Positions 5,890 to 61,061 of a stretch of DNA of 64,000 bases are shown here, one piece after another. Made by a program: the position numbers and the translations under genes. This DNA is from Granulicatella sp. WM01 (lineage in GTDB: Bacteria > Bacillota > Bacilli > Lactobacillales > Aerococcaceae). The stretch lies in contig NZ_SPPB01000001.1 of assembly GCF_004570605.1 (NCBI RefSeq), forward strand, positions 1 to 64,000, given 5' to 3'. Position 1 is the stretch's first letter. Each line of letters starts with the position of its first letter. The notes beneath the pieces are model-generated. The model was not told where the DNA came from, did not search any database, and saw only the letters and a list, made by a program, of their open reading frames with translations.

Positions 5890-7349
5890 TGGCGGTTACG
5901 AAGATACATCCGATTAAAACAACACTGAAAAAGGCGATAGACTATATCTGTAACGGAGATAAAACAGATGATGAAATCTATGTTACAACACACCTTTGCA
6001 GTAGAGAAAATGCTCACAAAGAGTTTGAACTTACCAAGAAATAATTTGGCTCAAGAACTAAGACTTTAGCACATCATCTAATCCAATCCTTTGTTCCGGA
6101 AGAAGTCAGTTTTGAAGAAGCACATCAAGTTGGAATGGAGTTATGTGAAAAGATTTTAGGTGGGAACTATGATTATGTTTTAGCGACACATATCGATAAA
6201 GATCATATTCATAATCATATAATCTTTAATTCCATAGATGTTGATGAGGGTAAGGTGTACCACTCTTGTTACGGCTCCTATATGAATATTCGAAATCAGA
6301 GCGACAAGCTTTGCAAGGAGTATAATTTATCTGTCATCGACCAAGAAACAGAAAAAGAAATCAACGAAATTAAGCGAAGAAAATTTGTGAATTGGTACGA
6401 CTGGAATGAAGATAAAAAAGGCATCAGCTATAAATCAAGGCTTCAATTTGATATTGATAGGACTATAAAGCAGTCAATCAATTGGCAGGACTTTCTATCT
6501 AAAATGGAAAGCTGTGGTTATGAAATTAAGATTGGTAAACACATAGCTTTTAGAAGTAAAAATCAGCAGAGATTTACCAGAGCAAAGACCATAGGAGCTA
6601 ACTATATCGAAGAAAGAATTAAGGAACGAATCCTGAATAAAGATAGAGAGATTGGCAATATCGTAGATATTAAGAACAACGATAAAGCAAAGTCAAGTAG
6701 AGGATATGAGCGTTGGGCGACAAAGCATAATCTTCAAACAGCGGCTTCAACGCTGGTTGAGATTAGAAGCAAAGGCTTTAGGTCAATGGAAGAATTGGAG
6801 CGTGGCATTAGTCGAATATCCAATGAAAAGAATGAACTAAGACAGGAATTTGATAAGCTGTTATGGGAGCAAAAGAGGATAAAGGAAGTAGTAAAGCATA
6901 TTCAAATCTGTATAAGCAAAAGAGAACATTATGAGGGTCATCGCAGAAATCCGAACGATAAAATTTATATGATGATGAATCGAAAAAATGTAGAAGCCTA
7001 TCAGAAGTCTTATGAGGAAATAGATATTTTTCTTAAGCAATTTCCACACTTAAGACATACTGTAGTAGGAGAGTTAAAGACAAAATCAAGTGAAAATCTT
7101 TTTAGGAAATTAAATGAGCATTCTAAAGAATTACAAGTTAAACAAGAGGCGATTGCAAAGAAACATAATTCATTAGCAGCAGAGCATGATGAATTGAGAC
7201 ATTTGAAAGTTAATATGAATGATTATCTTGGTAGGGATAAAACGGAGGAGAAAAAGAAATCCATTATTGGAGCAATTAAAAGGCATCAGGCTGAAGATAA
7301 GGAAAAGCTAAAAGAAAAGAAAGAAGCAAGCAAAGAAGCTGAGAGATAA
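5889..7349 (+). pseudogene. MOBP-type relaxase with in-frame TAA
   Basis: This is a relaxase/mobilization nuclease. The N-terminus MAVTKIHPIKTTLKKAIDYI is typical of this family. The frame from ATG 5889 is interrupted by TAA at 6042-6044 (ELTKK-stop-FGSRTKT) and then continues unbroken to 7349. The metal-binding triple-His motif is present downstream (THIDKDHIHNHIIF near 6187). The last ~180 residues are a Lys/Glu-rich coiled coil. The nearest ATG after the stop (6135) would give a protein lacking the N-terminal catalytic segment. Together with the broken integrase and helicase, this indicates an element that can no longer transfer by itself. Confidence 0.85.
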
Positions 7350-7357
7350 ACTTATGG

Positions 7358-7385
7358 TCGGTGTGGTTTTATGACGACGCCGACT
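7358..7385 (+). terminator. hairpin after relaxase
   Basis: GTCGGTGT at 7358-7365 pairs with ACGCCGAC at 7378-7385, followed by a weak T-rich stretch. It lies 8 bp after the relaxase stop codon and separates the mobile-element operon from the restriction locus. Confidence 0.5.
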
Positions 7386-7478
7386 TCTTGTATTTTATGA
7401 GTTCGTATATTTACGTTGGAAAAATATAGAAATTTATAAAATCTAAAATTAAAACAGAGAGAACGCTATATTTAAGTG

Positions 7479-7514
7479 CCTAAATATGGTATAATATTCT
7501 AAATTAGATTTAGG
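7479..7514 (+). promoter_or_regulatory. promoter with overlapping dyad upstream of hsd regulator
   Basis: A TATAAT -10 at 7490-7495 (extended form, ATGGTATAAT) is flanked by CCTAAAT at 7479-7485 and ATTTAGG at 7508-7514, a perfect inverted repeat. This is a reasonable operator for the small XRE protein encoded 26 bp downstream, implying autoregulation of the restriction-modification operon. Inference from position only. Confidence 0.5.
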
Positions 7515-7539
7515 AACTCATAGAAAGTGAGGAAATTTA

Positions 7540-7749
7540 ATGAAAGCTAATTATAAAAGATTGTGGCATATTTTATTGGATAGAGATATGAAAAAGAAAG
7601 AGTTAGCTCACATAGCCGGAGTTAGTACATATACTATCAACAAACTTAATAAGAACGATAATGTAACGGTTGAAGTTTTAGGGAAGATTTGCAAAGCTTT
7701 GGATTGTACATTAGACGATATTATGGAATTTGAAGAGGATGGTGAATAA
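7540..7749 (+). CDS. small XRE regulator preceding hsdM
   Basis: A 69-residue protein consisting almost only of a helix-turn-helix of the YozG/Cro type (KKKELAHIAGVSTYTINKL; then VEVLGKICKALDCTLDDIMEF). It ends 3 bp before the hsdM start, so it is the first gene of the hsd operon. Small regulators of this type often precede type I hsdM genes in Firmicutes and probably act as control proteins. A likely operator overlaps its promoter at 7479-7514. The frame is intact. Confidence 0.8.
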   Translation: MKANYKRLWHILLDRDMKKKELAHIAGVSTYTINKLNKNDNVTVEVLGKICKALDCTLDDIMEFEEDGE

Positions 7750-7752
7750 AGA

Positions 7753-9285
7753 ATGGCTGGAAAAAACAATGCAAATATAGGTTTTGAAAAACAAATTTGG
7801 GACGCAGCTTGTGTTCTTTGGGGACATATTCCTGCTGCTGAATATAGAAAAGTAATTGTTGGACTTATTTTTCTTCGTTATATATCCAGTGCCTTTGAAA
7901 AACGCTATGAGGAACTTTTAAAAGAAGGCGATGGCTTTGAAAACGATAGGGATGCATATGCAGAAGAAAATATTTTCTTTGTGCCGGAAGAAGCTCGTTG
8001 GAGCAAGATTTCCTCCGCTGCGCACACACCTGAAATTGGCACAGTAATTGATGACGCCATGAGGGCAATTGAAAAAGAAAATACGAGCTTAAAGAATGTT
8101 TTGCCTAAGAACTATGCCAGCCCTGATTTGGATAAAAGAGTATTAGGGGAAGTCGTTGACTTATTTACTAACGAAGTAAAAATGGATGGAACAGAGGTAA
8201 GTAAAGATTTATTGGGTAGGACATATGAGTATTGTATTGCTCAGTTTGCTTCCTATGAAGGAACAAAGGGTGGAGAATTTTATACGCCTTCAAGTATTGT
8301 AAAAACAATCGTTGCAATACTAAAACCTTTCAATAATTGCCGAGTGTATGATCCTTGTTGCGGCAGTGGTGGTATGTTTGTACAAAGTGAAAAATTCGTA
8401 CAGGCTCATAGCGACAATCGAGGGAATATTTCTGTTTATGGACAGGAATCTAATGCAGACACATGGAAGATGGCGAAAATGAATATGGCAATAAGAGGAA
8501 TTGATGCCAATTTTGGTTCTTATCATGCCGATACATTTTTTAATGACATCCATAAAACATTAAAATCGGATTTCATTATGGCAAATCCACCGTTTAATCT
8601 TTCCAATTGGGGTGCAGACAAATTAAAGGATGATGTTCGGTGGAAATATGGAACTCCGCCATCGGGAAATGCGAACTATGCGTGGATACAACATATGATT
8701 CACCACTTGGCACCTAATGGGAAAATAGGTTTAGTACTTGCTAATGGAGCATTATCATCCCAATCTTCAGGCGAGGGAGAAATAAGGAAAAAGATTATAG
8801 AAGATGATCTAGTTGAAGGGATTGTAGCTTTGCCGACACAACTGTTTTATAGCGTTACTATTCCAGTGACATTATGGTTTATTACAAAAAATAAAAAACA
8901 GAAAGGAAAGACTCTATTTATTGATGCCAGAAAAATGGGATATATGGTTGATAGAAAACATAGAGATTTTACGGAAGGTATACAAGAAGACGGAAGTCTT
9001 GGAGATATTGACGTATTAGCGAAAACCTTTGAAGATTTTCAAAATGGAGAATTAGAGGAGAAAAAGGGATTTTCTGCCATAGCGTCAATAGAAGATATAG
9101 CAAAACAAGATTATATATTAACTCCCGGTCGATATGTAGGCATTGAAGAGCAAGAAGATGACGGCGAGCCTTTTGAGGAAAAGATGACAAGACTGACCTC
9201 AGAGCTTTCGGATATGTTTGAGAAATCTCATGAACTTGAAGAGGAAATCAGAAAGAAACTGGGGGAGATTGGTTATGAAATGTAA
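7753..9285 (+). CDS. hsdM: type I restriction-modification methyltransferase subunit HsdM
   Basis: This 510-residue subunit transfers a methyl group from S-adenosylmethionine to adenine in the target sequence set by HsdS. An N-terminal helical domain (IWDAACVLWG, ~1-140) is followed by the N6-adenine methyltransferase fold. Motif I is DPCCGSGGM (about residues 199-207), and the catalytic NPPF motif is at about 277 (MANPPFNLSNWG). GGEFYTP near 175 is the usual HsdM signature. Length is normal. It overlaps hsdS by 11 bp. No lesions were seen, so methylation is probably active even though the neighbouring mobile element is decayed. Confidence 0.95.
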   Translation: MAGKNNANIGFEKQIWDAACVLWGHIPAAEYRKVIVGLIFLRYISSAFEKRYEELLKEGDGFENDRDAYAEENIFFVPEEARWSKISSAAHTPEIGTVIDDAMRAIEKENTSLKNVLPKNYASPDLDKRVLGEVVDLFTNEVKMDGTEVSKDLLGRTYEYCIAQFASYEGTKGGEFYTPSSIVKTIVAILKPFNNCRVYDPCCGSGGMFVQSEKFVQAHSDNRGNISVYGQESNADTWKMAKMNMAIRGIDANFGSYHADTFFNDIHKTLKSDFIMANPPFNLSNWGADKLKDDVRWKYGTPPSGNANYAWIQHMIHHLAPNGKIGLVLANGALSSQSSGEGEIRKKIIEDDLVEGIVALPTQLFYSVTIPVTLWFITKNKKQKGKTLFIDARKMGYMVDRKHRDFTEGIQEDGSLGDIDVLAKTFEDFQNGELEEKKGFSAIASIEDIAKQDYILTPGRYVGIEEQEDDGEPFEEKMTRLTSELSDMFEKSHELEEEIRKKLGEIGYEM

Positions 9286-10504
9286 TTGGTGTATAAAAAA
9301 ACTATCCGAAATTGCTCATATCAATCCCAAAGAAAGTATTGGTAAAGGAATCATGGCAAAAAAAGTACCAATGGATAAATTGCAACCGTTTTGTAGGGAT
9401 ATTCCAGAATTCATTTTGGAAGAGTATAAGGGTGGAGCTAAATTTAGAAATGGTGACACGATAATGGCAAGAATAACACCTTGTTTGGAGAATGGAAAAA
9501 TTTCAAAGGTTTCTATTTTGGATGATGATGAAGTTGGTTTTGGATCAACTGAATACATTGTTTTTCGTGCTATTGAAGGTGTTAGTGATGCTGATTTTCT
9601 GTATTATTTGATTTGTAGCCCATTGGTTCGTAATCCAGCAATTAAATCTATGGTGGGATCATCGGATCGCCAAAGAGTACAAACTGATGTAGTTGTTAAT
9701 TTGGATATAGAGTTGCCTAATATCAAAGAGCAAAGGAAAATAGGAAGTATACTAAGGGCTCTTGATGACAAAATAGCGTTGAATAATGCGATAAACAATA
9801 ATTTAGAGCAGCAAGCTCAGGCAATATTCAAAGAATGGTTTATTGACAATCCCGAAAACAATAAATGGTCAACAGGAACATTCTCTGAACTTATTAACTC
9901 AACCTTAAATGGTGATTGGGGAAAAGAAACACCGACAGGCAATAACATTGAAAAGGTTTACTGTATTAGAGGTGCAGATATTCCCGAAGTTAAAGCAGGC
10001 AATAAAGGCAAAATGCCCACAAGATATATTCTTCCTAAAAACTTTGTCACAAAGCAACTTACAGCCGGGGACATTGTTGTTGAAATTTCAGGAGGTAGTC
10101 CTACTCAATCAACCGGAAGATGCACAGCCATAACTCAATCATTACTTGACCGTTATGATAGCGGTATGGTTTGCACAAATTTCTGTAAGGCAATAAAGCC
10201 TAAAGAAGGATACAGTCTGTTTATCTACTATTATTGGCAATACCTGTATAGCAAAGGTGTCTTTTTCTCTTATGAAAATGGCACAACGGGAATTAAAAAC
10301 CTTGACTTTTCAGGCTTTATTGAAACAGAAACTATTTTAATTCCACCAGCAGATCAAGTTATAGCATTTGACAATTATTGTAAATCCATTTTTAATCAAG
10401 TCTTTGCTAATGGTAAACAAAACGAACATCTTGCTGTGCTTCGAGATACCCTTTTGCCCAAACTTATGTCCGGCGAGCTTGATGTACCAGACACGGACCT
10501 CTAA
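9275..10504 (+). CDS. hsdS: type I specificity subunit HsdS (expressed copy)
   Basis: A 409-residue specificity subunit with two target-recognition domains. I chose ATG 9275 because GGGGGAG lies 8 bp upstream and it overlaps the hsdM stop; an in-frame ATG at 9218 is too far inside hsdM. The first half ends in the conserved central region (NNAINNNLEQQAQAIFKEWF, ~170-190). The second half ends with LLPKLMSGELDVPDTDL. DNA encoding INNNL (9791-9805) and sequence just after the stop (10510-10523) are inverted copies of the same repeat, so the whole C-terminal half is bounded by recombination sites. The closing sequence is also repeated, inverted, at 12166-12230. Confidence 0.93.
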   Translation: MKCNWCIKKLSEIAHINPKESIGKGIMAKKVPMDKLQPFCRDIPEFILEEYKGGAKFRNGDTIMARITPCLENGKISKVSILDDDEVGFGSTEYIVFRAIEGVSDADFLYYLICSPLVRNPAIKSMVGSSDRQRVQTDVVVNLDIELPNIKEQRKIGSILRALDDKIALNNAINNNLEQQAQAIFKEWFIDNPENNKWSTGTFSELINSTLNGDWGKETPTGNNIEKVYCIRGADIPEVKAGNKGKMPTRYILPKNFVTKQLTAGDIVVEISGGSPTQSTGRCTAITQSLLDRYDSGMVCTNFCKAIKPKEGYSLFIYYYWQYLYSKGVFFSYENGTTGIKNLDFSGFIETETILIPPADQVIAFDNYCKSIFNQVFANGKQNEHLAVLRDTLLPKLMSGELDVPDTDL

Positions 10505-10523
10505 GCCGCTAAATTATTGTTTA
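9791..10523. repeat. hsdS cassette A bounded by inverted 14-15 bp repeats
   Basis: ATAAACAATAATTTA at 9791-9805 and its reverse complement TAAATTATTGTTTA at 10510-10523 flank the C-terminal half of hsdS. If this segment were inverted, the N-terminal half would read INNNLAA-stop, exactly the ending seen in the truncated hsdS at 11621-12169. That agreement strongly suggests real inversion endpoints. Confidence 0.75.
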
Positions 10524-10622
10524 GCATATAATATATCCATAACTTCTGTGGGTGGCAGAAGTTAATATCAGGGGACTTCCGCCCCATAGTCGTTCTCTAA
10601 AAATAAATAAGGAGGATTGACT

Positions 10623-11606
10623 GTGAAACAAGATTTAATCAAAGATGTTGTCCAAGGAATGTTACCATACTTGAACAACGCACAAAATGAGAAGTTACGA
10701 GAAGTTTTGCAATATACCCTTGCAAATTATGATGTAACAGAAAACAAGCAACAAGAGAAAATTTCGGAGCAGAACTTTATAGAATTGTTCTTATCGGCAA
10801 AACGTATAGAAGGGTGTTCCGAGAAATCCCTCAAATACTACAAATCTACTATTGAAGCTATGCTTGATGAACTCAAAAAAGATGTCAAACGCATAGTTAC
10901 AGATGATATAAGAGGATATCTGACAGAGTATCAAGAAAAGAAAAAGTCAAGTAAAGTTACAATAGACAATATACGCCGTATTCTTTCAAGTTTCTTCTCG
11001 TGGTTGGAAGATGAGGACTATATACTGAAAAGTCCGGTACGACGTATACACAAAGTTAAAACTGGCACAAATATAAAGGAAACCTATTCTGATGAAGCGT
11101 TGGAGCTTATGAGGGATAACTGCACAGAACTGAGAGATTTGGCAATTATAGATATGCTCGCTTCTACCGGTATGCGTGTAGGAGAAATGGTGCTGCTTAA
11201 TCGTAATGATATTGATTTCAATGAGAGAGAATGTATTGTTTTCGGTAAGGGCAGTAAAGAACGGGTTGTTTACTTTGATGCAAGAACAAAGATACATTTG
11301 CAGAATTACTTGAAAAGCAGAACAGATGATAATCCGGCACTGTTCGTATCCTTGAAATTACCTCACAAAAGATTGAAAATCGGCGGGGTTGAAGTGAGAT
11401 TAAGGGAATACGGAAAGAAATTAGGTTTGCAAAAGGTACACCCACATAAATTCAGGCGTACGCTTGCAACTATGGCAATAGATAAAGGAATGCCTATTGA
11501 GCAATTGCAACAGCTCTTGGGGCATAGGAAAATAGATACGACCTTGCAGTACGCAATGGTCAAACAGAGTAATGTTAAGATTGCTCATCGAAAATATATT
11601 GGATAG
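10623..11606 (+). CDS. tyrosine recombinase of the hsdS inverton
   Basis: A 327-residue XerC/D-like tyrosine recombinase. GTG 10623 is chosen because GGAGG (10611-10615) is 7 bp upstream; TTG 10617 is possible. A core-binding domain at ~50-140 is followed by the catalytic domain with the first Arg in ASTGMRVGE (~178-186), HKFRRTLA (~274), LGHRKIDTTLQY (~297-308, with the Tyr nucleophile). It lies between hsdS gene copies. This is the arrangement of recombinases that shuffle hsdS target-recognition domains, for example in phase-variable type I systems of streptococci. Its substrate is very likely the repeats at 9791, 10510, 12146 and 12868. Confidence 0.88.
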   Translation: MKQDLIKDVVQGMLPYLNNAQNEKLREVLQYTLANYDVTENKQQEKISEQNFIELFLSAKRIEGCSEKSLKYYKSTIEAMLDELKKDVKRIVTDDIRGYLTEYQEKKKSSKVTIDNIRRILSSFFSWLEDEDYILKSPVRRIHKVKTGTNIKETYSDEALELMRDNCTELRDLAIIDMLASTGMRVGEMVLLNRNDIDFNERECIVFGKGSKERVVYFDARTKIHLQNYLKSRTDDNPALFVSLKLPHKRLKIGGVEVRLREYGKKLGLQKVHPHKFRRTLATMAIDKGMPIEQLQQLLGHRKIDTTLQYAMVKQSNVKIAHRKYIG

Positions 11607-11620
11607 AAAGGAGAACGGAT

Positions 11621-12169
11621 ATGGCTGTATGGGAGACAATTAGACTTGATAAGATAGTTTCAACAAATCAAAGCACTTATTCTCCAAAAGAAGATTGGCA
11701 ATTTGTAAACTATTTAGATACTGGAAATATTACGATGAATCGAGTTGATGAAATACAGTATATAAACACTTCAACGGACAAGTTGCCGAGCAGAGCAAGA
11801 AGAAAAGTAAAATTGAATAGTATCATTTACTCAACTGTAAGACCTAATCAGTTGCACTATGGAATTATTAAAGAACAGCCTGACAATTTTTTAGTATCAA
11901 CAGGATTTGCGGTAATTGATGTCGATTTTGAGAAAGCAGTTCCAGATTACATTTATTATGTTTTGACGCAAAAGAAAGTTACAGAACATCTACAAGCGAT
12001 TGCAGAACAGAGCGTGTCAGCTTATCCTTCTATTAAGCCTTCAGATATTGAAAATTTAGAGCTTCTTCTTCCTGATAGAAAAACACAGGAAAAGATTGTA
12101 GCTATTCTTAGTTCAATGGATAAGAAAATAAAACAAAATAATGAAATAAACAATAATTTAGCGGCTTAA
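11621..12169 (+). CDS. HsdS N-terminal half (silent, awaiting a C-terminal cassette)
   Basis: A 182-residue protein with only one target-recognition domain (AVWETIRLDKIVS... to LLLPDRKTQEKIVAILSSM) and the start of the central helix, ending INNNLAA at 12169. The stop arises because the DNA after repeat 12146-12160 continues into a cassette lying in the opposite direction. It begins 15 bp after the recombinase with a good AAAGGAG site. Inversion of 12146-12882 would fuse it to a C-terminal half, giving a full-size second HsdS. In the current orientation it might still act as a half-subunit dimer. Confidence 0.85.
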   Translation: MAVWETIRLDKIVSTNQSTYSPKEDWQFVNYLDTGNITMNRVDEIQYINTSTDKLPSRARRKVKLNSIIYSTVRPNQLHYGIIKEQPDNFLVSTGFAVIDVDFEKAVPDYIYYVLTQKKVTEHLQAIAEQSVSAYPSIKPSDIENLELLLPDRKTQEKIVAILSSMDKKIKQNNEINNNLAA

Positions 12170-12882
12170 AGGTTCGTGTCTGGTACATCAAGCTCGCCGG
12201 ACATCAGCTTAGGCAATAAGGACTCTCTCAATTCTTCAAGATATGTATTTTCGGAGATGTTAGATGAAATTTGTTTATATAATGCAGTTACAACCTCATC
12301 TAACGGTTTCAATGTTGAAAAGTCACTTGGTAGGAACAGCTTGTATTCAGGCAAAGCCTTTTTACTTAAATGTAGAACTGTTGTACCATTTACGTATCCC
12401 AAACAATGAGACTTGAATTTCTTGTCTTGAAGAATTGTGGCAATGAGGAATCTGGAAACACTGTCCTTTTTAGGAAGAACTTTTACCAAATCCATAGAGA
12501 AAATAATATCATCATACCCTGATTTGCTCATTATTAGTTCTGCATTACCGATAACTTCGGCATTTTGAGTTAAGTCTGTATGAGCAACTAAAGTATCAAA
12601 CAATTCAGCGTGTTGAGATTCTTTTAATTTTGACGATGGAATAATTTCTTTATAACCATCCAACTTGAATCCGCCTTTACGGTCAAAGTTCTTTATTGTT
12701 GCCATAGCTATTGAGGAATCGGTAAGTTCAGTTCCTTTGTATGAGTATCCACTAATGAACTCAGCTATGTCTGACAAAGGTGTTTCTACCCAATCGGAAG
12801 GCATAACACCATCAAAAGGTTTATAATCAGAAAGCCAAGCGGTGCATATTGTTTTGATTTGTTCAAATAAATTATTGTTTAT
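12146..12882. repeat. hsdS cassette B bounded by perfect 15-bp inverted repeats
   Basis: ATAAACAATAATTTA at 12146-12160 is perfectly inverted at 12868-12882. The enclosed DNA encodes, on the reverse strand, a C-terminal HsdS half including INNNL read through the repeat at 12868-12882. The inner part 12166-12230 is near-identical, inverted, to 10440-10504. The segment is currently in the OFF orientation relative to the half gene at 11621. Confidence 0.78.
12166..12804 (-). CDS. HsdS C-terminal half in reversed orientation
   Basis: The reverse frame encodes a single target-recognition domain (MPSDWVETPLSDIAEF onward) plus the tail LLPKLMSGELDVPDTNL, matching the end of the expressed HsdS. The frame is open beyond the ATG up to 12882, where it reads INNNLFEQIKTICTAWLSD, the HsdS central region. 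It is therefore a stored cassette, not a free-standing gene. Its TRD differs from the C-terminal TRD of the expressed copy, so inversion or exchange would change DNA specificity. No promoter or ribosome-binding site is evident for independent expression. Confidence 0.85.
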   Translation of the reverse strand: MPSDWVETPLSDIAEFISGYSYKGTELTDSSIAMATIKNFDRKGGFKLDGYKEIIPSSKLKESQHAELFDTLVAHTDLTQNAEVIGNAELIMSKSGYDDIIFSMDLVKVLPKKDSVSRFLIATILQDKKFKSHCLGYVNGTTVLHLSKKALPEYKLFLPSDFSTLKPLDEVVTALYKQISSNISENTYLEELRESLLPKLMSGELDVPDTNL

Positions 12883-12903
12883 ATTACAGAAGGAGTCGTA
12901 AAT

Positions 12904-14196
12904 ATGGAAGAAATAATATTTAATAAAGATGAAATGGAAAATTATGGAATAGAGATAACTTCTGTAAGCTCTTTCATTGATGAAGTAAATAGGTTAAAAG
13001 ATGCTTTGTATGGGAGCAATGAGGAATTATTTTTCAGAGGGCAAAAAACTGATTTCTGGGATGTTATTCCAAGCATTTTTAGAGGTGATTTTTTAAGTGT
13101 AGAACATACATTAATGCAGGTTCCTCTATTAAAAGCACCTTATGAATTTATTTCTATAAATAATGATTTTGAAATTATGACAAAATACCAACATTATGGA
13201 ATGTGCACAAGATTGTTAGATTTAACTACGAATCCGTTAGTGGCTCTATACTTTGCTTGTGAAGAATATGGTGATGTCTGTTATAAGGGAATTGAAAATG
13301 AAGAAGACACTAAAAGACAAGAAGCGAACGGTGTAATATTTTTTAATAAAAAATACTCTGTATCTACAAATGAGATAAATATAAAAGTTATATCCTCTTT
13401 ATCTCAGATAGATTTATCAAATGATAATACCCTTGAATCCATATTGAGAAAACTTACAGAACGGCAAGCTATCTCACAAGAGTTAGAAGAAAGATGGAAA
13501 TCAAGAGAACATTTCGAAGAATTTATAAATATTATTCAGAATAATTATATTGTTATACCTCCATACAATAATGAAAGATTATCAAGGCAATGCGGAATGT
13601 TTTTATTGGCAGGATGCTTTAATTTTGTTTATACCGAGTCAATCAGTGAGTCCAGTATAGAAAAAGGATATAAAGATTTACGAGATGAATTTGATAGAAA
13701 GTTTTTCTATATTCCTGGAGAGAAGAAGAAAGAAATATTAGAAGAATTAGATACTTATAATATAAATGAGGCAACTTTATTTCCTGAATTAGAGCATCAA
13801 TTGAGCTATATAAAAAATAAAAAGAATGTTAAAACAAAGGCTTCATCAGAATTTATAAAATTTGATTCTAATGATATAAACCAACAAATAATAAAAACAG
13901 ATATTGAAATAAGTGGAAACATAATAAAAGATGAGAGTTTCAAAGATACTGTCATTAAAGATTTAAGCGAAAAATATCATTTCGATATACAAGAAATATG
14001 GGAATTAGTGGAAGAATGGGTTTCAATAGTTGATTGGAATAGACAAGAGTCTATATTAAGTAGATTTAGGGTGAGCGTTCAAAAAGTCTTACTGAAAAAT
14101 GAATTTGATAAAGAACATGCAAAGAATGAATCTGAGTATATTAGTGATAAAATTATAAAGATAGCAACTGAATTATCGAAGAGGAGTGAAGAATAG
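12904..14196 (+). CDS. FRG-domain protein in type I RM operon
   Basis: A 430-residue protein with an N-terminal FRG domain (about residues 35-120): LFFRGQKTDFW, IPSIFRGDF, and the YQHYGMCTRLLDLTTNPLVA block with ALYFACEEYG. FRG domains are widespread, frequently linked to defense islands and phage-related loci, with unclear biochemistry. The C-terminal ~150 residues are charged and helical, and I do not recognise them. A GGAGTCG site precedes ATG 12904. Its stop overlaps the hsdR start (TAGTG at 14194-14198), so it is co-expressed with restriction. It may be an accessory defense factor or a regulator of restriction. Confidence 0.8.
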   Translation: MEEIIFNKDEMENYGIEITSVSSFIDEVNRLKDALYGSNEELFFRGQKTDFWDVIPSIFRGDFLSVEHTLMQVPLLKAPYEFISINNDFEIMTKYQHYGMCTRLLDLTTNPLVALYFACEEYGDVCYKGIENEEDTKRQEANGVIFFNKKYSVSTNEINIKVISSLSQIDLSNDNTLESILRKLTERQAISQELEERWKSREHFEEFINIIQNNYIVIPPYNNERLSRQCGMFLLAGCFNFVYTESISESSIEKGYKDLRDEFDRKFFYIPGEKKKEILEELDTYNINEATLFPELEHQLSYIKNKKNVKTKASSEFIKFDSNDINQQIIKTDIEISGNIIKDESFKDTVIKDLSEKYHFDIQEIWELVEEWVSIVDWNRQESILSRFRVSVQKVLLKNEFDKEHAKNESEYISDKIIKIATELSKRSEE

Positions 14197-17100
14197 TGTC
14201 GGAATTTTTTATAGAAGCAGATTATGAAAACTCAATAATTGAATTATTTCAGACTGATTTAGGATACGAGTATGTATACGGTCCGGATATTGAAAGAGAC
14301 TTTTATAGCCCATTATATGAAGACATTCTGATTGAATCTCTATATCGTTTGAATAGAGGAGTACCGGATGATGCTATTCAAGAAGCACTATATAAACTCA
14401 AAAATTTTGAAAATGGGGAGCTTGTGCAGAAAAACGCTATATTTATGGACTATCTGCAAAGTGGTATTTCTGTCAGATATTTTGTTGATGGTGAAGAGCG
14501 TTCTTCTATCATCTATCTTGTTGACTACAAAAATCCCGAAAACAACTCCTTTGTTGTTGCTAATCAATGGACATTTATTGAAAATAGTAATAAACGTCCT
14601 GATATAATTTTGTTCTTAAATGGTTTACCAGTTGTATTAGTGGAACTAAAGGCTCCTTCTCGTGAAGAAACTGATGCTTCAGAAGCTTACAGGCAGCTCC
14701 GTAACTATATGCAGGAAATTCCGTCCATGTTTATTTATAATGCTATTTGCGTTATGAGCGATCAATTGACATCTAAAGCTGGTACTATCACTTCCGGTGA
14801 AGACCGTTTTATGGAGTGGAAAACAAAGGATGGGAATTACGAAAATACACAGTATGCTCAGTTTGACACTTTCTTTGAGGGAATGTTTCAAAAAGAAAGA
14901 CTGCTTGATATTATCAAGAACTTTATTTGCTTTTCAAATGAGGGGATTGATACCTTTAAAATTCTTGCCGGGTATCATCAGTATTTTGCGGTAAGAAAAG
15001 CGATTGAATCTACAAAGCACGCCACTATTACTGACGGTAAAGGAGGTGTTTTCTGGCATACACAAGGAAGTGGTAAATCGCTTTCGATGGTGTTCTATGC
15101 TCATTTATTGCAGGAAGCATTGAATAGCCCTACTATCGTTGTACTTACAGATAGAAACGACCTTGACGACCAACTTTACGGACAGTTTGCAAAGTGTAAA
15201 GACTTTTTAAGGCAAGAGCCTATGCACGCTGAAAGTCGTGAAAACCTGAAAACTTTGCTTACTGGCAGACAAGCAAATGGTATTATCTTTACCACAATGC
15301 AGAAATTTGAGGAGTCCGATGAACCACTGTCCGAACGAAATAATATTGTTGTTATGGCGGACGAAGCACATAGAGGGCAGTATGGACTTGCCGAAAAGAT
15401 AAAGATTACAAAAAATGAAGATGGTGATGAAGTAGCAAAGCGTGTTATCGGCACAGCAAGAATCATTCGTAATACGCTTCCGAATGCCACATATATAGGA
15501 TTTACAGGAACACCTATTTCATCAAAAGATCGTAGCACTCGTGAAGTGTTTGGTGATTATATTGACATCTACGATATGACGCAAGCGGTTGAAGATGGTG
15601 CAACACGTCCGGTTTATTATGAGAGCCGTGTAATTAAGCTAAATCTTGATGAAACTACCTTGAAATTAATTGATGCAGAATATGATTTGATGGCTCTTAA
15701 TGCTGATGAGGAAGTTATCGCAAAGAGTAAGAGAGAGCTGGGTCAGATAGAAGCGGTTCTTGGTAATGATAACACTATAAATTCCCTTGTTTGTGATATT
15801 CTTGATCATTATGAAAATAATAGAGAGAATCTGCTTACAGGTAAGGCTATGATTGTTGCGTATTCTCGCCCTATTGCCATGAAAATTTACAAGCGAATAT
15901 TAGAACTTCGTCCGGATTGGACTGAAAAAGTAGGTGTTGTTATGACCTCCGGCAACAATGATCCAGAAGAATGGAGACAGATTATTGGTAATAAACACCA
16001 TAAGAATGAGATTGCAAAGAAATTCAAAGATAACGACAGTACTATGAAGATTGCGATTGTTGTTGATATGTGGTTAACAGGGTTTGATGTTCCTTCTCTT
16101 GCTACGATGTATGTATACAAGCCTATGTCCGGGCACAATCTCATGCAAGCAATTGCTCGTGTAAACCGTGTATTTCGTGATAAAGAAGGCGGGCTTGTTG
16201 TTGACTATGTTGGAATTGCGACTGCTTTGAAACAGGCGATGAACGACTATACATCTCGTGATAAAAAGAACTATGGTGATACTGATGTCGGAAAGGTTGC
16301 ATATCCGAAATTCTTGGAGAAATTATCAGTTTGCCGTGATAAGTTTCATGGATATGATTATACAAAGTTTATTAATGGTACAGATCTTGAGAGAGCAAAA
16401 ACTATCAGTGGTGCTGTAAATTTTATTATCAGCAGAGAAAAAGTTGATGATAAAGATTCTTTCGTAAAAGAAGCTCTTATGCTTCATCAGGCTCTTTCTC
16501 TTTGTTCTTCTTTGGTTGATGAAGATAGTAGATTTGAAGCAGCATTCTTTGAGGCTGTTCGAGTTCTTGTTCTCAGACTTACCAATACCGGTGTTGGTAA
16601 AAAGATTTCCTTACCGGAAATGAATGCAAGAATAAATGAACTTTTGAAACAGAGTATTAAAAGTGATGGGGTAATAAATTTATTTTCAGATATCAAAGAG
16701 GAGTTTTCTTTGTTTGACCCCAAATTTCTTCAAGATGTTGCAAATATGAAAGAGAAAAATCTTGCAGTTGAACTATTGAAAAAATTAATTGCAGAACAGG
16801 TTTCTGTTTATCGCAGAACAAATATTGTAAAATCTGAAAAGTTCAGCGAGATTATGCAGCGTTCTCTGAATGCTTATCTTAACGGTATGCTTACCAATGA
16901 AGAAATTATAGAAGAAATGTTAAAGTTGGCAAAACAGATTGCAGCAGCACATCAAGAGGGAGACAGATTAGGGTTGACTGCTGATGAACTTGCTTTTTAT
17001 GATGCCTTAACAAAACCACAGGCAATCAAGGACTTTTATGAAAACGACGAGCTGATTGCAATAACAAAAGAATTAGCCGATACTCTACGTAAGAATAAGA

Positions 17101-17342
17101 CTATTGATTGGCAGAAGCGTGAATCAGCGAGAGCTAAAATGCGTATGCTGATAAAGAAACTTTTGAAAAAACATAAATATCCGCCTGAAGGAATGGATGA
17201 TGCCGTTCAGACTGTTATGACACAGTGCGAACTTTGGACAGATAATTTCAACTTTGAAGAAGATTACAAGGTTTATTTTAATACTAATTTTACAAATGAA
17301 AATCTATCTTTGGTTGCAGAAGAAAAGGGCAAATATAATTAA
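14196..17342 (+). CDS. hsdR: type I restriction enzyme subunit HsdR
   Basis: A 1048-residue motor and nuclease subunit. The N-terminal PD-(D/E)XK nuclease is visible (RPDIILFLNGL then VVLVELKAPS, ~130-155). The SF2 translocase follows: Walker A TQGSGKSLS (~288), DEAH-type box MADEAHR (~387), SAT-like FTGTPI (~435), and motif VI ARVNRVFRD (~652). The C-terminal third is helical and would contact HsdM. The GTG start overlaps the FRG stop. Length is normal and no frame damage is seen, so the whole R-M-S complex appears functional. Confidence 0.95.
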   Translation: MSEFFIEADYENSIIELFQTDLGYEYVYGPDIERDFYSPLYEDILIESLYRLNRGVPDDAIQEALYKLKNFENGELVQKNAIFMDYLQSGISVRYFVDGEERSSIIYLVDYKNPENNSFVVANQWTFIENSNKRPDIILFLNGLPVVLVELKAPSREETDASEAYRQLRNYMQEIPSMFIYNAICVMSDQLTSKAGTITSGEDRFMEWKTKDGNYENTQYAQFDTFFEGMFQKERLLDIIKNFICFSNEGIDTFKILAGYHQYFAVRKAIESTKHATITDGKGGVFWHTQGSGKSLSMVFYAHLLQEALNSPTIVVLTDRNDLDDQLYGQFAKCKDFLRQEPMHAESRENLKTLLTGRQANGIIFTTMQKFEESDEPLSERNNIVVMADEAHRGQYGLAEKIKITKNEDGDEVAKRVIGTARIIRNTLPNATYIGFTGTPISSKDRSTREVFGDYIDIYDMTQAVEDGATRPVYYESRVIKLNLDETTLKLIDAEYDLMALNADEEVIAKSKRELGQIEAVLGNDNTINSLVCDILDHYENNRENLLTGKAMIVAYSRPIAMKIYKRILELRPDWTEKVGVVMTSGNNDPEEWRQIIGNKHHKNEIAKKFKDNDSTMKIAIVVDMWLTGFDVPSLATMYVYKPMSGHNLMQAIARVNRVFRDKEGGLVVDYVGIATALKQAMNDYTSRDKKNYGDTDVGKVAYPKFLEKLSVCRDKFHGYDYTKFINGTDLERAKTISGAVNFIISREKVDDKDSFVKEALMLHQALSLCSSLVDEDSRFEAAFFEAVRVLVLRLTNTGVGKKISLPEMNARINELLKQSIKSDGVINLFSDIKEEFSLFDPKFLQDVANMKEKNLAVELLKKLIAEQVSVYRRTNIVKSEKFSEIMQRSLNAYLNGMLTNEEIIEEMLKLAKQIAAAHQEGDRLGLTADELAFYDALTKPQAIKDFYENDELIAITKELADTLRKNKTIDWQKRESARAKMRMLIKKLLKKHKYPPEGMDDAVQTVMTQCELWTDNFNFEEDYKVYFNTNFTNENLSLVAEEKGKYN

Positions 17343-17387
17343 TTAGTTTTATTCTTTGTAAACCTGTATGGTGAAAGAGGACAAATT

Positions 17388-18065
17388 ATGGCAAAAGGAA
17401 TAATATATTTAATGACTACAGTTGTTTCTGGGCTTATCAAGATTGGCAAGACGGGAAATGAGCAATTTGAAAATAGAATGAGATTTTTAGAAAGCAATGG
17501 ATATGCGAATATTACAGGACTAAAAAGGGAGTTTGCTATAGAAGTAGATGGATATGATGAGAAAGAAAAACTTATTCATGACATCTTTAGCAAAAGTAGA
17601 ATTGTAGGTACTGAACTGTTTGCGTTAGATATAGAGGTGGCAAAATCATTATTATCTTCTTTAGATGGTAAACAAATTTATCCTAAAGATAAAAGTAAAA
17701 AAGAAGTATTCAAAGAATCCACAGAAGAAATAAAACTTAAAACTGAGGTTGGATTTGTTCCAGATGGAGAGTATGTATTAAATCGTAACATAAAAGGTTT
17801 TGGGAAAGTAAATGGGAAAGCCATAGTTAAAGATGGAGTATTCACGGTGTTAAAAGGAAGTTTTTGTGGCAATACCGGAAAAGGTTATATACCGTCTATT
17901 AGAAGAAATGCGAAAATAAAAGATAATATCTTACAAGAAGATATTGTATGTATGAATCCATCAAGTGCCGGTTGGATAGTTATTGGTAAATCTAATAATG
18001 GATGGGTAGAATGGAAAGACTTACAAGGGAACCTTATTGAAAAATATAGAGATAAAGAAGAGTAG
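17388..18065 (+). CDS. GIY-YIG family nuclease with DUF4357-like tail
   Basis: A 225-residue protein. The N-terminal ~90 residues match the T5orf172/GIY-YIG type fold: KGIIYLMTT, then GLIKIGKTGN, a conserved Arg (ENRMRFLE) and a Glu in GTELFAL. The C-terminal ~100 residues (KGFGKVNGKAIVKDGVFTVLKGS then SSAGWIVIGKSNNGWVEWKD) resemble a DUF4357 domain. Such proteins often accompany type I restriction systems and may cleave or sense DNA. Its start is 45 bp after hsdR, consistent with the same transcript. The exact substrate is unknown. Confidence 0.75.
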   Translation: MAKGIIYLMTTVVSGLIKIGKTGNEQFENRMRFLESNGYANITGLKREFAIEVDGYDEKEKLIHDIFSKSRIVGTELFALDIEVAKSLLSSLDGKQIYPKDKSKKEVFKESTEEIKLKTEVGFVPDGEYVLNRNIKGFGKVNGKAIVKDGVFTVLKGSFCGNTGKGYIPSIRRNAKIKDNILQEDIVCMNPSSAGWIVIGKSNNGWVEWKDLQGNLIEKYRDKEE

Positions 18066-18111
18066 TCGATATATAAGCTATCTATTATGGAAAATAACGA
18101 GAGGTATGTGT

Positions 18112-18972
18112 ATGCCAAATTTAAAAGCAAAAGAATATAAAAAATTTGAAGATATTAAGTATGTCAGAAAAGACGGAAGCGAGTATTGGAGTGCAAGAGA
18201 ACTTGCTGATGTACTTGATTATTCTCAGTGGAGAAATTTTCAAAAGGTAATTGATAGAGCGATGATTGCTTGTGAGAACAGCGGTCATGAGGTAGAATAC
18301 GATTTTGCTGAGGTCAGCAAAATCGTGGAAGCAGGTGCTACAAGCAAGTCTATTAAAGATTATGAACTTACAAGATATGCTTGCTATTTGATTGTGCAAA
18401 ACGGTGATCCGAGAAAAGAGGTTATTGCACTTGGACAAACCTATTTTGCCATACAGACATATCGTCAAGAAATAGCTGACCATTTTAATCAGCTTGATGA
18501 AGATAGAAGAAGGCTTGTTGTTCGTGGAGATATTAAACAATGGAATCAGCTTTTGGTAGAAACAGCACATGATGCAGGAGTCATTACAAATGAAGAGTTT
18601 GCTATATTTCAGAACGCAGGCTACATGGGATTGTATGGTGGGTTAGATGTAGAAGATATACACAACAGAAAAGGCTTAACCGCAAGACAAAAAATTCTGG
18701 ACTATATGGGAAGCACCGAATTGATTGCTAATTTATTTAGAATTTCACAGACCGAAGAAAAGCTAAGAAAAGACAAAGTTGAAGGTGCAGAAGCTGCAAC
18801 AAAGGTTCACTACTTAGTAGGAAAAGAAGTAAGAAGTGCTATTGAAAAAATTGGTGGCACTATGCCGGAAGACTTGCCTGTTCCGGAGAAAAGTATTCAA
18901 CAGATAGAAAAAGAACAGATGAAGCGTTTAAAAGATAAAGCTAAAAAAGGTAAGTTGATGTTGGATGAATAA
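18112..18972 (+). CDS. dinD: DinD-like DNA damage-inducible protein
   Basis: A 286-residue protein resembling DinD, which in E. coli is LexA-controlled and inhibits RecA strand exchange. The N-terminus has a BRO/KilA-N-like domain (YWSARELADVLDYSQWRNF; YELTRYACYLIVQNGDPRK), followed by the Gln-rich helical region typical of DinD (FAIQTYRQE) and a Lys-rich C-terminus. ATG 18112 has GAGG at 18101-18104. An upstream in-frame start at 18037 overlaps the preceding gene and lacks support. It is the last gene before a long non-coding gap, so it probably lies at the end of the accessory island. No LexA box was identified. Confidence 0.8.
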   Translation: MPNLKAKEYKKFEDIKYVRKDGSEYWSARELADVLDYSQWRNFQKVIDRAMIACENSGHEVEYDFAEVSKIVEAGATSKSIKDYELTRYACYLIVQNGDPRKEVIALGQTYFAIQTYRQEIADHFNQLDEDRRRLVVRGDIKQWNQLLVETAHDAGVITNEEFAIFQNAGYMGLYGGLDVEDIHNRKGLTARQKILDYMGSTELIANLFRISQTEEKLRKDKVEGAEAATKVHYLVGKEVRSAIEKIGGTMPEDLPVPEKSIQQIEKEQMKRLKDKAKKGKLMLDE

Positions 18973-22235: not shown

Positions 22236-22245
22236 CCTAAGGAAG

Positions 22246-22279
22246 ATTGACAAGCAAAATCAAGTGCTTGTCAATTTTT
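22246..22279 (+). terminator. proS terminator
   Basis: ATTGACAAGCA at 22246-22256 pairs with TGCTTGTCAAT at 22265-22275, followed by T5. It begins 11 bp after the proS stop codon. Confidence 0.9.
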
Positions 22280-22645
22280 CTTTAGGGCAAAGAGGATACA
22301 CAGTTTGAAAACGATAGTGTATTAAATTAGAGCAAATGTAATTATTTTTCAAATGATTAGTGCATGACGTACGGTACTAGAACATAAGAATTTTGCCGTA
22401 TTATGTATAGAATTTATAAAAATAATCGTGATGGTTAACGTCTGTTCGCCATCACGATTTATTGTGTACATTGTAAAGGGGAATGAATAAAAACTAGCTA
22501 TTAATATGCCGTTTGAACGCTAAATGGTGTTGTGGTATGAGGCAAGGGTGGAATAGTGTAGGTGTTCTTTCTATCAATAAAGCTATTTTGTTATGTTGTT
22601 TAATCGTTTAAGGCATGATGTCAGATTTTTGAGAGTGTATATTTT
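22280..22645. other. non-coding region between proS and the Cas12a-like gene
   Basis: No gene is seen on either strand. It contains one hairpin (22424-22459). I translated the reverse strand beyond the Cas12a-like stop in search of the missing remainder of a cas12a gene and saw nothing recognisable. Confidence 0.5.
22424..22459. terminator. hairpin, possible terminator
   Basis: AATCGTGATGG at 22424-22434 pairs perfectly with CCATCACGATT at 22449-22459; only a weak TTTATT follows. No gene ends nearby, so its origin transcript is unclear. Confidence 0.5.
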
Positions 22646-22704
22646 GGTTCTATAATAAATAGGGTTGATGAAAAAAATTCATTAACCCTATTTGACATAG
22701 AACC
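22646..22704. repeat. 59-bp palindrome overlapping the 3' end of the Cas12a-like gene
   Basis: GGTTCTAT at 22646-22653 and AATAGGGTT with its extension pair with AACCCTATT and ATAGAACC ending at 22704. The seven-A/T run lies in the loop, and no T-run follows either outer arm, so it is not a textbook terminator. The reverse arm supplies the last codons and the stop of the gene at 22688. Ends of the form GGTTCTAT...TTGATG recall IS terminal repeats (ISL3-like, from memory), so a tiny MITE or solo inverted ends are possible. Confidence 0.6.
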
Positions 22705-23332
22705 TGTATTTCACAATGTTATATGATGTTAGATAAGATGAGTAAAGATGTAGTGCGTTTATTTTATGTCCCCCTATTGATAGGAGTTGCTGTTTTAATT
22801 CATCTGGAAGCATATTAAATTTGTCGATATTTTTCTTGAATATGACTAAATTTTCATCTATTAGACGATAAGCAATTGTTCCATGAGTAATTTCTGAAAA
22901 TATACGTTTTCTAGTGTCAAAAAATTTCTTGAAATATGTTGAGAATCCCTTAAAAAGACGAATCGTATCATCTGTTGGATAGGATTGTTCGAGTAGTTTC
23001 AAGTGTTTATCAGGTGAAAATAGTGGTGATGACGTGTCAAAAAAAGATTTGATATAATTTTTTAATTGTTCACTTGCACGCTCTTTTATAGAGGTATCTT
23101 CTGAAAAAACTTCTGTCAATAAATCTTGGTCTAATGATATAAGAGCTAATGTTTCATCAATAAGTTTTTTAAAATCGTCATCAAATAGTGATTGCATATA
23201 TTCTCTTTTGTCAAATTTTAATGTATCATCAGTTAAAATGTTGTTTCGTTCTAAATGATGTAATGTTTTCTCATAAGGTTTTAATTCAAAACGTAATGTT
23301 TTGCTGATTTCAAAAATATTTTCGTATAACAT
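22688..23332 (-). CDS. orphan Cas12a N-terminal (WED-I/REC1)-like protein
   Basis: A 214-residue protein clearly similar to the first ~280 residues of Cas12a (Cpf1). The start FEISKTLRFELKPYEKTL (residues ~6-23) corresponds to the Cas12a WED-I strand (SKTLRFEL-type). FKGFSTYFKKFFDTRKRIFS and TIAYRLIDENLVIFKKNI match the REC1 core (YF.GF..NRK, I.YR...ENL). Near the C-terminus SIGGHKIN and YNIVKY echo the YN.IIGG region. The RuvC and Nuc domains, cas1/cas2/cas4 and a CRISPR array are all absent. ATG 23332 has GGGGAG six bases upstream; TTG 23338 is less likely. The gene has its own promoter (23502-23531). The last residues RFYVK are encoded within a palindrome. It is either a truncated relic kept in frame or a repurposed domain. 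Confidence 0.85.
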   Translation of the reverse strand: MLYENIFEISKTLRFELKPYEKTLHHLERNNILTDDTLKFDKREYMQSLFDDDFKKLIDETLALISLDQDLLTEVFSEDTSIKERASEQLKNYIKSFFDTSSPLFSPDKHLKLLEQSYPTDDTIRLFKGFSTYFKKFFDTRKRIFSEITHGTIAYRLIDENLVIFKKNIDKFNMLPDELKQQLLSIGGHKINALHLYSSYLTSYNIVKYRFYVK

Positions 23333-23501
23333 AAGCAACTCCCCTTATTTGTAGTATGAGATAATGGACGCATTTTATATGTGTTATAGCTAGATTTTTC
23401 ACAAAAAATATTTAAACTGTATGTCTTTTATCAACATAAAAATGACGCCATTTTTCGTCTGAAATAGTATTTAGCATTCTTGTATTTCCTACTTTATTTA
23501 G

Positions 23502-47979: not shown

Positions 47980-48420
47980 ATGAGTAGCGTAAAAAATGAA
48001 GTTATACAAATAAATGAAAATGAGTTAAAGGAAAAACTGTTAAATGTTAACAAAGAAAATACGACTATTGTTGAATTAGACGGCAGAAATATTCAAGATA
48101 AATTTATCTTTATTGATGAAATGCGTGAGAAATTTAAACTGCAAGATAGTCATAGATATCGTCGTATGTCAAGAGAGGGGGTTGAAACAATAAGTTGGGA
48201 TGCCTTCGATGATAGGATGACAGAATTAAGTGGCTTTCCAGATGAGATGAATTTTGTACTAATTATTTATCATTTTAGTGAGTTTTTGAAAAAGGATATT
48301 GAAAGCAGAGAAACAGCATTATATTTTTTGAGAAAAACGGCACATTACTGGGAAGAGGAAGTGTTAAAAGTAGCTATTGGTTGGGACACTAAAGCATTTA
48401 ATGTTTACTTAGTTGATTAA
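47980..48420 (+). CDS. barstar-like immunity protein 1
   Basis: A 146-residue protein starting 14 bp after the toxin gene. The core TTIVELDGRNIQDKF, then ISWDAFDDRMTELSGFP and VLIIYHFSEF match the barstar fold (strand-helix with W-DAFDD-type core; acidic helix facing the RNase active site). It is longer than barstar (~90 residues), mainly at the N-terminus (VIQINENELKEKLL) and C-terminus (HYWEEEV). It probably blocks the RNase domain of the preceding exoprotein in the cytoplasm. Confidence 0.85.
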   Translation: MSSVKNEVIQINENELKEKLLNVNKENTTIVELDGRNIQDKFIFIDEMREKFKLQDSHRYRRMSREGVETISWDAFDDRMTELSGFPDEMNFVLIIYHFSEFLKKDIESRETALYFLRKTAHYWEEEVLKVAIGWDTKAFNVYLVD

Positions 48421-48424
48421 ATTT

Positions 48425-48461
48425 GTTTATAAGAGAGTGACTAGGTCACTCTCTTATAAAC
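48425..48461 (+). promoter_or_regulatory. perfect 17-bp intergenic hairpin between immunity genes 1 and 2
   Basis: GTTTATAAGAGAGTGAC at 48425-48441 pairs perfectly with GTCACTCTCTTATAAAC at 48445-48461, with a TAG loop. It starts 4 bp after the stop codon and is followed by AAAGGAG of the next gene. No T-run. Confidence 0.85.
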
Positions 48462-48480
48462 ATAAACTAAAGGAGAATAT

Positions 48481-48918
48481 ATGAGCAGCATAAAAAATGA
48501 AGTTATACAAATAAATGAAAATGAGTTAAAGGAAAAATTGTTAAATGTTAATAAAGAAAATACGACTATTGTTGAATTAGATGGCAGAAATATTCAAGAT
48601 AAATTTATCTACATTGATGAAATGCGTGAGAAGTTTAAACTTCCAGATAGACATAGATATCGTATGTCAAGAGAGGGGGGAGAAACAATAAATTGGAATG
48701 CTTTTGATGATAGAATGACGGAATTAAGTTGGTTTCCAGATGATATGAATTTTGTACTAATCATTTATCATTTTCATGAATTTTTAAAAAATGATTTAGC
48801 AAGTAAAAATATAGTCTTGGATGTGTTTAAAGATATTGCATACTTTTGGGAAGAGGAAGTGTTAACAATAACTGTTGGTGGGAAAACTAGAGGATTTAGT
48901 GTTTATTTAGTTGACTAA
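48481..48918 (+). CDS. barstar-like immunity protein 2
   Basis: A 145-residue paralogue of the preceding gene. The N-terminal ~65 residues are nearly identical (IKNEVIQINENELKEKLLNV), with differences concentrated in the exposed middle and C-terminal region (LPDRHRYRMSREGGE; WFPDDMNFVLII; DLASKNIVLDVFKDI). One residue is deleted relative to copies 1 and 3. AAAGGAG is 6-8 bp before ATG. It may neutralise a related RNase from competing strains or an older version of the local toxin. Confidence 0.85.
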   Translation: MSSIKNEVIQINENELKEKLLNVNKENTTIVELDGRNIQDKFIYIDEMREKFKLPDRHRYRMSREGGETINWNAFDDRMTELSWFPDDMNFVLIIYHFHEFLKNDLASKNIVLDVFKDIAYFWEEEVLTITVGGKTRGFSVYLVD

Positions 48919-48922
48919 ATCT

Positions 48923-48959
48923 GTTTATACAAGAGTGACTAGGTCACTCTTGTATAAAC
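48923..48959 (+). promoter_or_regulatory. perfect 17-bp intergenic hairpin between immunity genes 2 and 3
   Basis: GTTTATACAAGAGTGAC at 48923-48939 pairs with GTCACTCTTGTATAAAC at 48943-48959, TAG loop. Compared with the hairpin at 48425-48461, two base pairs have changed on both arms together (A-T to C-G and G-C to A-T), which preserves the stem. Confidence 0.85.
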
Positions 48960-48978
48960 ATAAGCTAAAGGAGAAAAT

Positions 48979-49419
48979 ATGAGCAGCATAAAAAACGAAA
49001 TGATACATATAACAAAAAATGAATTAAAAGAAAAATTAATACATATTAACAAAGAAAATACGACTATTGTTGAATTAGACGGCAGAAATATCCAAGATAA
49101 GTTTAGCTACATTGATGAAATGCGTGAGAAATTTAAACTGCAAGATAGTCATAGATATCGTGATATGTCAATTGAAGGAGTTGAAACGATAAATTGGGAT
49201 GCCTTCGATGATAGGATGACGGAATTAAGTGGTTTTCCAGATGATATGGGTTTTGTATTAATTATTTATCATTTTTATGAATTTCTAAAAGATGATTTAG
49301 AGAATAAACAGAGAATATTGAGAATATTCAATAATACTTTATATTTTTGGGAAGAGGAAGTGTTAACAGTAGCTGTTGAATGGAAAACTAAAGCATTTAA
49401 CATTTATTTAGTTGATTAA
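48979..49419 (+). CDS. barstar-like immunity protein 3
   Basis: A 146-residue third paralogue (IKNEMIHITKNELKEKLIHI). It shares the core VELDGRNIQDKFSYIDEMRE and INWDAFDDRMTELSGFP. The C-terminal half (DDLENKQRILRIFNNTLYFW) has diverged most. It has its own AAAGGAG but no hairpin after it, so the hairpin plus gene unit looks like the duplicated block. All three copies are intact, suggesting selection for immunity breadth. Confidence 0.85.
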   Translation: MSSIKNEMIHITKNELKEKLIHINKENTTIVELDGRNIQDKFSYIDEMREKFKLQDSHRYRDMSIEGVETINWDAFDDRMTELSGFPDDMGFVLIIYHFYEFLKDDLENKQRILRIFNNTLYFWEEEVLTVAVEWKTKAFNIYLVD

Positions 49420-51428: not shown

Positions 51429-52378
51429 TAGGTATTATTGCTATTTTAATCGCTTTTGTTTTGGATTTATGTATAGGGGATCCATATAGTTGGCCGCATC
51501 CTGTTAAGGCAATAGGGCATTATATTACGTTGTTTTTAAAACTGAAAGAAAAATGGAAAATCAATCCGTATATCATCGGAATTATATTATGGTTAACAAC
51601 TGTAGGATTAACAGTTGGAATAAGTGCATTAGTATTACATATTGGTGCAACAGTTCATCCAATTTTATATTGGATATTATGGGTATATATGGCTTATACG
51701 AGTTTAGCAACACGTAGTTTAGCGTATGAAGCCAAAAAGGTTTATCAAAAATTGACGCAAGGCACGCTTGATGAGGCAAGGACACAAGTTGGCATGATTG
51801 TCGGAAGAGAAACAGCACAGTTGAGCAAAGAGGAGATTTGCAAAGCAACTATCGAAACGGTTGCTGAAAATGCAAGTGACGGAGTGATTGGGCCGTTGAT
51901 GTGTTTGTTTATTGGAGGCCCTATTTTAGCAATGGGATACAAAGCGATTAATACGCTTGATTCAATGGTTGGCTACAAACATGAAAGATATTATAAAATT
52001 GGATTTACATCTGCCAAAATAGACGATATTGTCAATTTAGTACCAGCAAGAGTAACGTTTGTGATGCTACTCCTAGCAACACATGTTTTGCAGTATGACG
52101 TTAAACAGGTTGCACGTTTAGCTTGGCGAGATAGATATAATCATGCTAGTCCTAATAGTGCCTTTCCTGAATCTGTAGTTGCTGCAGCACTACGTATACA
52201 ATTAGGTGGAGTACACGTGTATCATGGTGAGTTAGTTGAAAAACAAACCATTGGAGACAATTCTAGACAAGTTGATACAATTGATATTATGCATACTGTG
52301 ACCATGTTATATATAGCTACGTGTTTAAGCGTCATATTAGGCTCAATAGTGAGTTTAGTCATACATACTATACAATAG
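51425..52378 (+). CDS. cbiB: adenosylcobinamide-phosphate synthase
   Basis: CbiB attaches the aminopropanol (phosphate) arm to adenosylcobyric acid in the membrane. ATG 51425 overlaps the cbiA stop and gives 317 residues. Multiple hydrophobic segments are present. Family blocks: LCIGDPYSWPHPVKAIGHYI (~14-33), IETVAENASDGVIGPLMC (~143-160), GYKAINTLDSMVGYK (~177) and the C-terminal ASPNSAFPESVVAAALRIQL. The short overlap suggests tight coupling with cbiA. Confidence 0.95.
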   Translation: MIGIIAILIAFVLDLCIGDPYSWPHPVKAIGHYITLFLKLKEKWKINPYIIGIILWLTTVGLTVGISALVLHIGATVHPILYWILWVYMAYTSLATRSLAYEAKKVYQKLTQGTLDEARTQVGMIVGRETAQLSKEEICKATIETVAENASDGVIGPLMCLFIGGPILAMGYKAINTLDSMVGYKHERYYKIGFTSAKIDDIVNLVPARVTFVMLLLATHVLQYDVKQVARLAWRDRYNHASPNSAFPESVVAAALRIQLGGVHVYHGELVEKQTIGDNSRQVDTIDIMHTVTMLYIATCLSVILGSIVSLVIHTIQ

Positions 52379-52389
52379 GAGAAAAGAAG

Positions 52390-53073: not shown

Positions 53074-53102
53074 CAACCTAGTTAGAAAGAAGTGATATTG
53101 GT

Positions 53103-53786: not shown

Positions 53787-53800
53787 TTAAGACAGGGGGC

Positions 53801-56086: not shown

Positions 56087-56107
56087 AGTGATAAGGAGAG
56101 GAAAATC

Positions 56108-57929: not shown

Positions 57930-57941
57930 GGAGATTGTTAT

Positions 57942-59413: not shown

Positions 59414-59601
59414 ATGTGCATACTTTGATAAAATAAACATAGATAATATGTTACATCATTCATATAATGTATGATAAAAAAAGATGTGTTGGGACTGTAT
59501 TTTCATAATGGAATCAAACAGATGAATATTAAAAATAATGAGTCATGTCAATCCATGGGGAAATTAGTCCTATTCACATGACGTTCAAAAAGGAGAGCTT
59601 A

Positions 59602-61059: not shown

Positions 61060-61061
61060 TC

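Follow-up and report, generated by a model that had tools for sequence, protein, structure and literature searches.

Cas12a (Cpf1), the effector of type V-A CRISPR-Cas systems, is a protein of about 1,200–1,400 aa that carries, beyond WED-I and REC1, the REC2, WED-II/III, PI and RuvC/Nuc parts, and its gene is usually laid out together with cas4, cas1, cas2 and a repeat array. The crRNA repeat is processed and held at a site in the later WED segments (H759 in LbCas12a; PMC6711708). In type V-A systems, a crRNA-like RNA, CreR, serves autorepression together with Cas12a (PMC12737573). Degraded CRISPR-Cas systems have been surveyed for Cas9 in the Mollicutes, in which at least 8 of 21 systems are inactivated or degraded, leaving partial or inactive systems and orphan array remnants after loss of function (PMC6882279). 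Our search of the literature for truncated cas12a relics returned nothing specific.

The 64,000-bp stretch of the Granulicatella sp. WM01 genome analysed here (the window) contains a minus-strand reading frame of 214 aa (22688..23332), which the original prediction took for a stand-alone Cas12a N-terminal domain. Residues 1–209 are collinear with WED-I and REC1 of As-, Lb- and FnCas12a, and the frame covers WED-I and most of REC1; that part of the prediction stands, but the frame takes its final four codons and its stop from a miniature inverted-repeat element (MITE), and RuvC/Nuc, REC2, WED-II/III and PI are absent. The fragment is very probably a pseudogene: only the 5' sixth remains of the cas12a gene of a lost type V-A system, broken at an ISL3-type element. 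It resembles the Mollicutes relics in combining a partial system with an orphan array remnant, but here the effector is Cas12a rather than Cas9 and the break lies at an identifiable ISL3-type MITE.

The truncated cas12a reading frame and its 3' end

The frame runs on the minus strand from an ATG at 23330–23332 to a TAG at 22688–22690, and direct reading of the sequence places the ribosome-binding site of the former cas12a, AAGGGGA (23340..23346, minus strand), seven bases 5' of the ATG; the frame is intact and has a ribosome-binding site, as originally described. The promoter described with it does not stand out, since the region has 11 such sigma-70-like matches against 12.0 ± 4.1 in shuffled sequences. 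The identity of the product was established with PADLOC, Pfam and a whole-genome model match. The PADLOC Cas12a profile matched residues 3–209 (3.3e-34), Pfam REC1 was detected at 1.4e-14, phmmer against AsCas12a gave 9e-14, and the motif order is collinear with Cas12a. These comparisons lie far above chance and leave no doubt that the product is homologous to the N-terminus of Cas12a; the proposed kinship was thus borne out by profile search. Identity to the 41 Cas12a relatives in our alignment is 24–34%, the nearest homologues reaching about 34%.

The GC contents at codon positions 1, 2 and 3 (38, 25 and 21%) are coding-like. An AlphaFold2 model of the 214-aa product, built with the alignment of 41 Cas12a N-termini, had a mean pLDDT of 90, and all its Foldseek hits at E ≤ 0.001 were Cas12a structures or the Cas12a-like ReChb, so that the predicted fold also agrees with Cas12a. 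Since the supplied alignment largely determines the model, it shows compatibility and not function; a coding-like composition and a confident fold are also to be expected of a recently cut gene.

The gene-derived part of the frame comprises codons 1–209 (22706..23332, minus strand), homology being detectable up to Tyr209 in the IDxYN motif of Cas12a. The sequence is Cas12a-like without a gap up to this residue: ALHLYSSYLTSYNIVKY aligns with LDYYSSVLTQIQIDAYN of L072 and with the conserved F/Y...LTQ..I..YN segment of Cas12a. The tail score of this segment was equalled by only 12 of 49,918 17-residue windows in the six-frame translation of the whole window, and its site is the best-scoring one in the protein and lies at the expected place. 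Beyond it begins the 59-bp MITE (22646..22704, no strand assigned). Codon 210 (AGG, 22703–22705) straddles the edge, with one base from the gene and two from the MITE, and the final FYVK and the stop are MITE sequence, so the protein ends where the element starts.

The element was recognised from near-identical solo copies on contigs C55, C137 and C175 of the same genome, which match it at 57–58 of 59 bases. Both of its ends also occur at full insertion sequences of the genome, many of them at contig ends, and the transposase beside one such end matches DDE_Tnp_ISL3 (1.1e-37); the shared ends identify the element as an ISL3-type MITE. Members of this family (C175:17351, C137:22777 and C55:27356) consist of little beyond two joined IS ends. 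Perfect 8-bp target duplications flank the copies at C137 and C175; the flanks agree at 6 of 8 bases in the window copy and at 4 of 8 at C55. The 6/8 agreement, for which the random expectation is about 1.2%, hints at a simple insertion of the MITE, although the sequence on its far side is not Cas12a; the MITE may have inserted first and the rest of the gene have been deleted afterwards.

By profile alignment, the end of the frame maps to about residue 238 of LbCas12a and 258 of AsCas12a. REC1 reaches past these residues in Cas12a structures, so the break falls inside REC1 and does not follow a domain boundary. In the sequence between proS and the MITE (22236..22645, no strand assigned), hmmsearch --max with the full Cas12a profile and inspection of the translations revealed no Cas12a remnant in any frame, nor does a frameshifted continuation of the gene extend past the MITE up to proS. 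No cas genes or array lie beside the fragment.

The site had been regarded as core chromosome. In the two other genomes of the genus, proS is followed at its 3' side by polC (G074) or by an oppositely oriented thioredoxin-reductase-like gene (G075), and neither genome contains a relative of the fragment. The differing neighbours mark a site of rearrangement rather than a stable core context.

Three other regions of the window are worth noting: 1) The region 6135–18972 is mobile-element-like, with a relaxase fragment, type I restriction-modification genes, an FRG-domain protein and a Bro-N protein, and includes oppositely oriented specificity genes beside an integrase-like gene, possibly phase-variable. 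2) The region 47980–49419 encodes three paralogues of about 146 aa in tandem, which follow a LysM-repeat surface protein and by eye resemble duplicated barstar-type immunity genes. 3) The region 50064–63862 is occupied by a long cluster of genes apparently for cobalamin (B12) biosynthesis.

Remnants of type V-A CRISPR-Cas in the genome

The assembly searched comprises 2.03 Mb in 219 contigs and is rated 99.6% complete. A model built from 17 full-length Cas12a proteins gave a single match (E limit 10), the window fragment itself, at model positions 7–207 of 1,238. RuvC_1 had no match in the whole assembly and neither did the Cas1 family, which was detected in control genomes; the reported lack of RuvC and, as regards cas1, of adaptation genes in the window therefore extends to the assembly. 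Missing from Cas12a are about 1,000 residues, i.e. the rest of REC1, REC2, WED-II/III, PI, RuvC, the bridge helix and Nuc.

The absence could be only apparent if the strain had an intact cas12a and the contig were falsely joined at the 59-bp repeat, as several of the 219 contigs end in copies of the IS and a repeat could confuse an assembler. However, ordinary short reads span 59 bp, and the remaining 85% of cas12a as well as cas1 are on no other contig of this nearly complete assembly. We consider such an artefact very improbable.

No type V-A repeat was detected in the window with up to 3 mismatches, and no Rfam family was found there. The original statement that there are no CRISPR repeats thus holds for the window but not for the genome, which contains exactly one complete type V-A repeat of 36 nt, GTCTAAAAGACCTTATTAATTTCTACTATTGTAGAT, outside the window (C22:28796-28831). 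It is followed by a 26-nt spacer and by a second repeat recognisable only in its first 13 bases, and the resulting orphan mini-array (G000:C22:28796-28897, i.e. L071:4797-4898) is located between an HU gene and one resembling low-molecular-weight phosphatase genes, with no cas genes. The complete repeat folds with the expected 3' hairpin and is absent from both congeneric genomes, and the viral contigs contain no exact match to the spacer. The genome thus has no cas1 and no array beyond this unit, which presumably stems from the same system as the cas12a fragment.

In having a single type V-A repeat, one spacer and a degenerate repeat copy, the C22 unit is reminiscent of CreR (PMC12737573), but it has neither an adjacent Cas12a nor a cas promoter, and the genome has no Cas12a to guide. 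The likeness bears on the proposal that the N-terminal domain was exapted, the truncated protein being expressed as a regulator that binds DNA or a crRNA-like RNA, perhaps that of the C22 repeat. The autorepression by CreR and Cas12a, the persistence of a complete repeat with its hairpin, and the open frame with start and ribosome-binding site can all be counted for it. However, the fragment consists of only the first WED segment and part of REC1, and the later WED segments with the crRNA-repeat site are absent from it; furthermore, its C-terminus is encoded by the MITE.

Relatives of the fragment and constraint on its sequence

Queries of the genome contigs and viral contigs with the protein alone yielded no close homologue; homologues in the genome contigs were recovered with a degenerate profile (A1). 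Complete ORFs among the 80 best relatives encode about 1,050–1,500 aa; the exceptions are two interrupted ORFs of 508 and 798 aa, and the remaining short ORFs are cut off by a contig end. A length close to 214 aa does not occur among them, so that no conserved short length can be recognised. Of the 76 genomes of the family, G045 alone contains a clear homologue, namely a full Cas12a of 1,284 aa, and a credible Cas12a match was found in 2 of 395 genomes of the order, the window fragment being one of them. As the frame ends in a MITE in the middle of REC1 and no homologue of the same length occurs among the 80 best relatives, the 395 genomes of the order, plasmids, phages or viral contigs, its description as a stand-alone domain is not supported.

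The Cas12a of G045 has an unusually divergent N-terminus and belongs to an apparently complete type V-A locus (G045:C20:117292-125642, i.e. L047:5293-13643) with cas4-, cas1- and cas2-like genes and about 40 repeats. A match in G025 (E 2.9e-4, in a 385-aa frame) was rejected as due to chance, the ORF reading as a GlgD-type sugar-nucleotide enzyme, and RuvC_1 matches in G018 and G019 were weak and below the family cut-off.

Relatives were also absent from 50,697 phage records, 72,556 plasmid records and, by pattern scan, the viral contigs. These results bear on the suggestion that the product is a decoy or inhibitor, which would interfere with Cas12a or shield it from anti-Cas12a factors. The product does resemble part of Cas12a, a protein bound by some anti-CRISPR proteins, but the fragment is chromosomal, has no relative among these mobile sequences, and is found in a genome with no Cas12a left to act on, so that such a role is hardly credible.

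Five of 18 columns that are invariant in other Cas12a proteins are broken in the fragment (K47Q, R91K, N143R, Q203S and N210R), or 4 of 17 if the MITE codon N210R is left out, whereas the next worst sequence, that of G045, breaks 2 of 20 and the median is 0. This excess suggests relaxed constraint, but divergence of the lineage could account for part of it (mean identity to the set 0.298, compared with 0.295 for G045). The intactness of the frame had been read as a sign of some selection or of recent truncation. In simulations with random substitutions, however, 48% of the copies were without a stop at 3% substitution and 21% at 7%; with nearly half of the copies still open at 3%, a run of 211 open codons says little for selection.

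With the C-terminus in the MITE, invariant residues lost and none of the 80 best relatives similarly short, we regard an expressed regulator derived from the N-terminal domain as very unlikely. Equally slight is the chance of the stump being translated and retained as a small REC1-like factor binding nucleic acid or protein, possibly paired with the C22 repeat RNA as a regulatory remnant. Some residual expression or exaptation is conceivable, but neither received positive support.

Probable loss of a type V-A system

Of the origins originally considered, that from a type V-A locus since lost is the one favoured by the homology cut at the MITE, the missing rest of the gene and the orphan repeat. 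The lineage would once have had a type V-A CRISPR-Cas system and later lost it. An element of the ISL3 family, now a 59-bp MITE situated exactly at the break, presumably caused the deletion, and the 3' rest of the operon, comprising about 1,000 codons of cas12a and, in the usual layout, cas4, cas1, cas2 and the array, would have disappeared from the locus. The stump, which retains its start codon and ribosome-binding site and has not yet gained a stop, is presumably without function, and the C22 repeat with its one spacer would be the other leftover.

Since CRISPR-Cas relics are common, the fragment is in itself of low interest. It shows that a short ORF may be intact and give a good domain match without being a new protein; the question that settled its nature was the source of its C-terminus. 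As a relic, it provides a clear snapshot of type V-A loss, in which the effector gene breaks off at the very base where an ISL3-type element begins, while elsewhere an orphan repeat persists, and it records the former presence in this lineage of Cas12a, an effector that is rare in the order.
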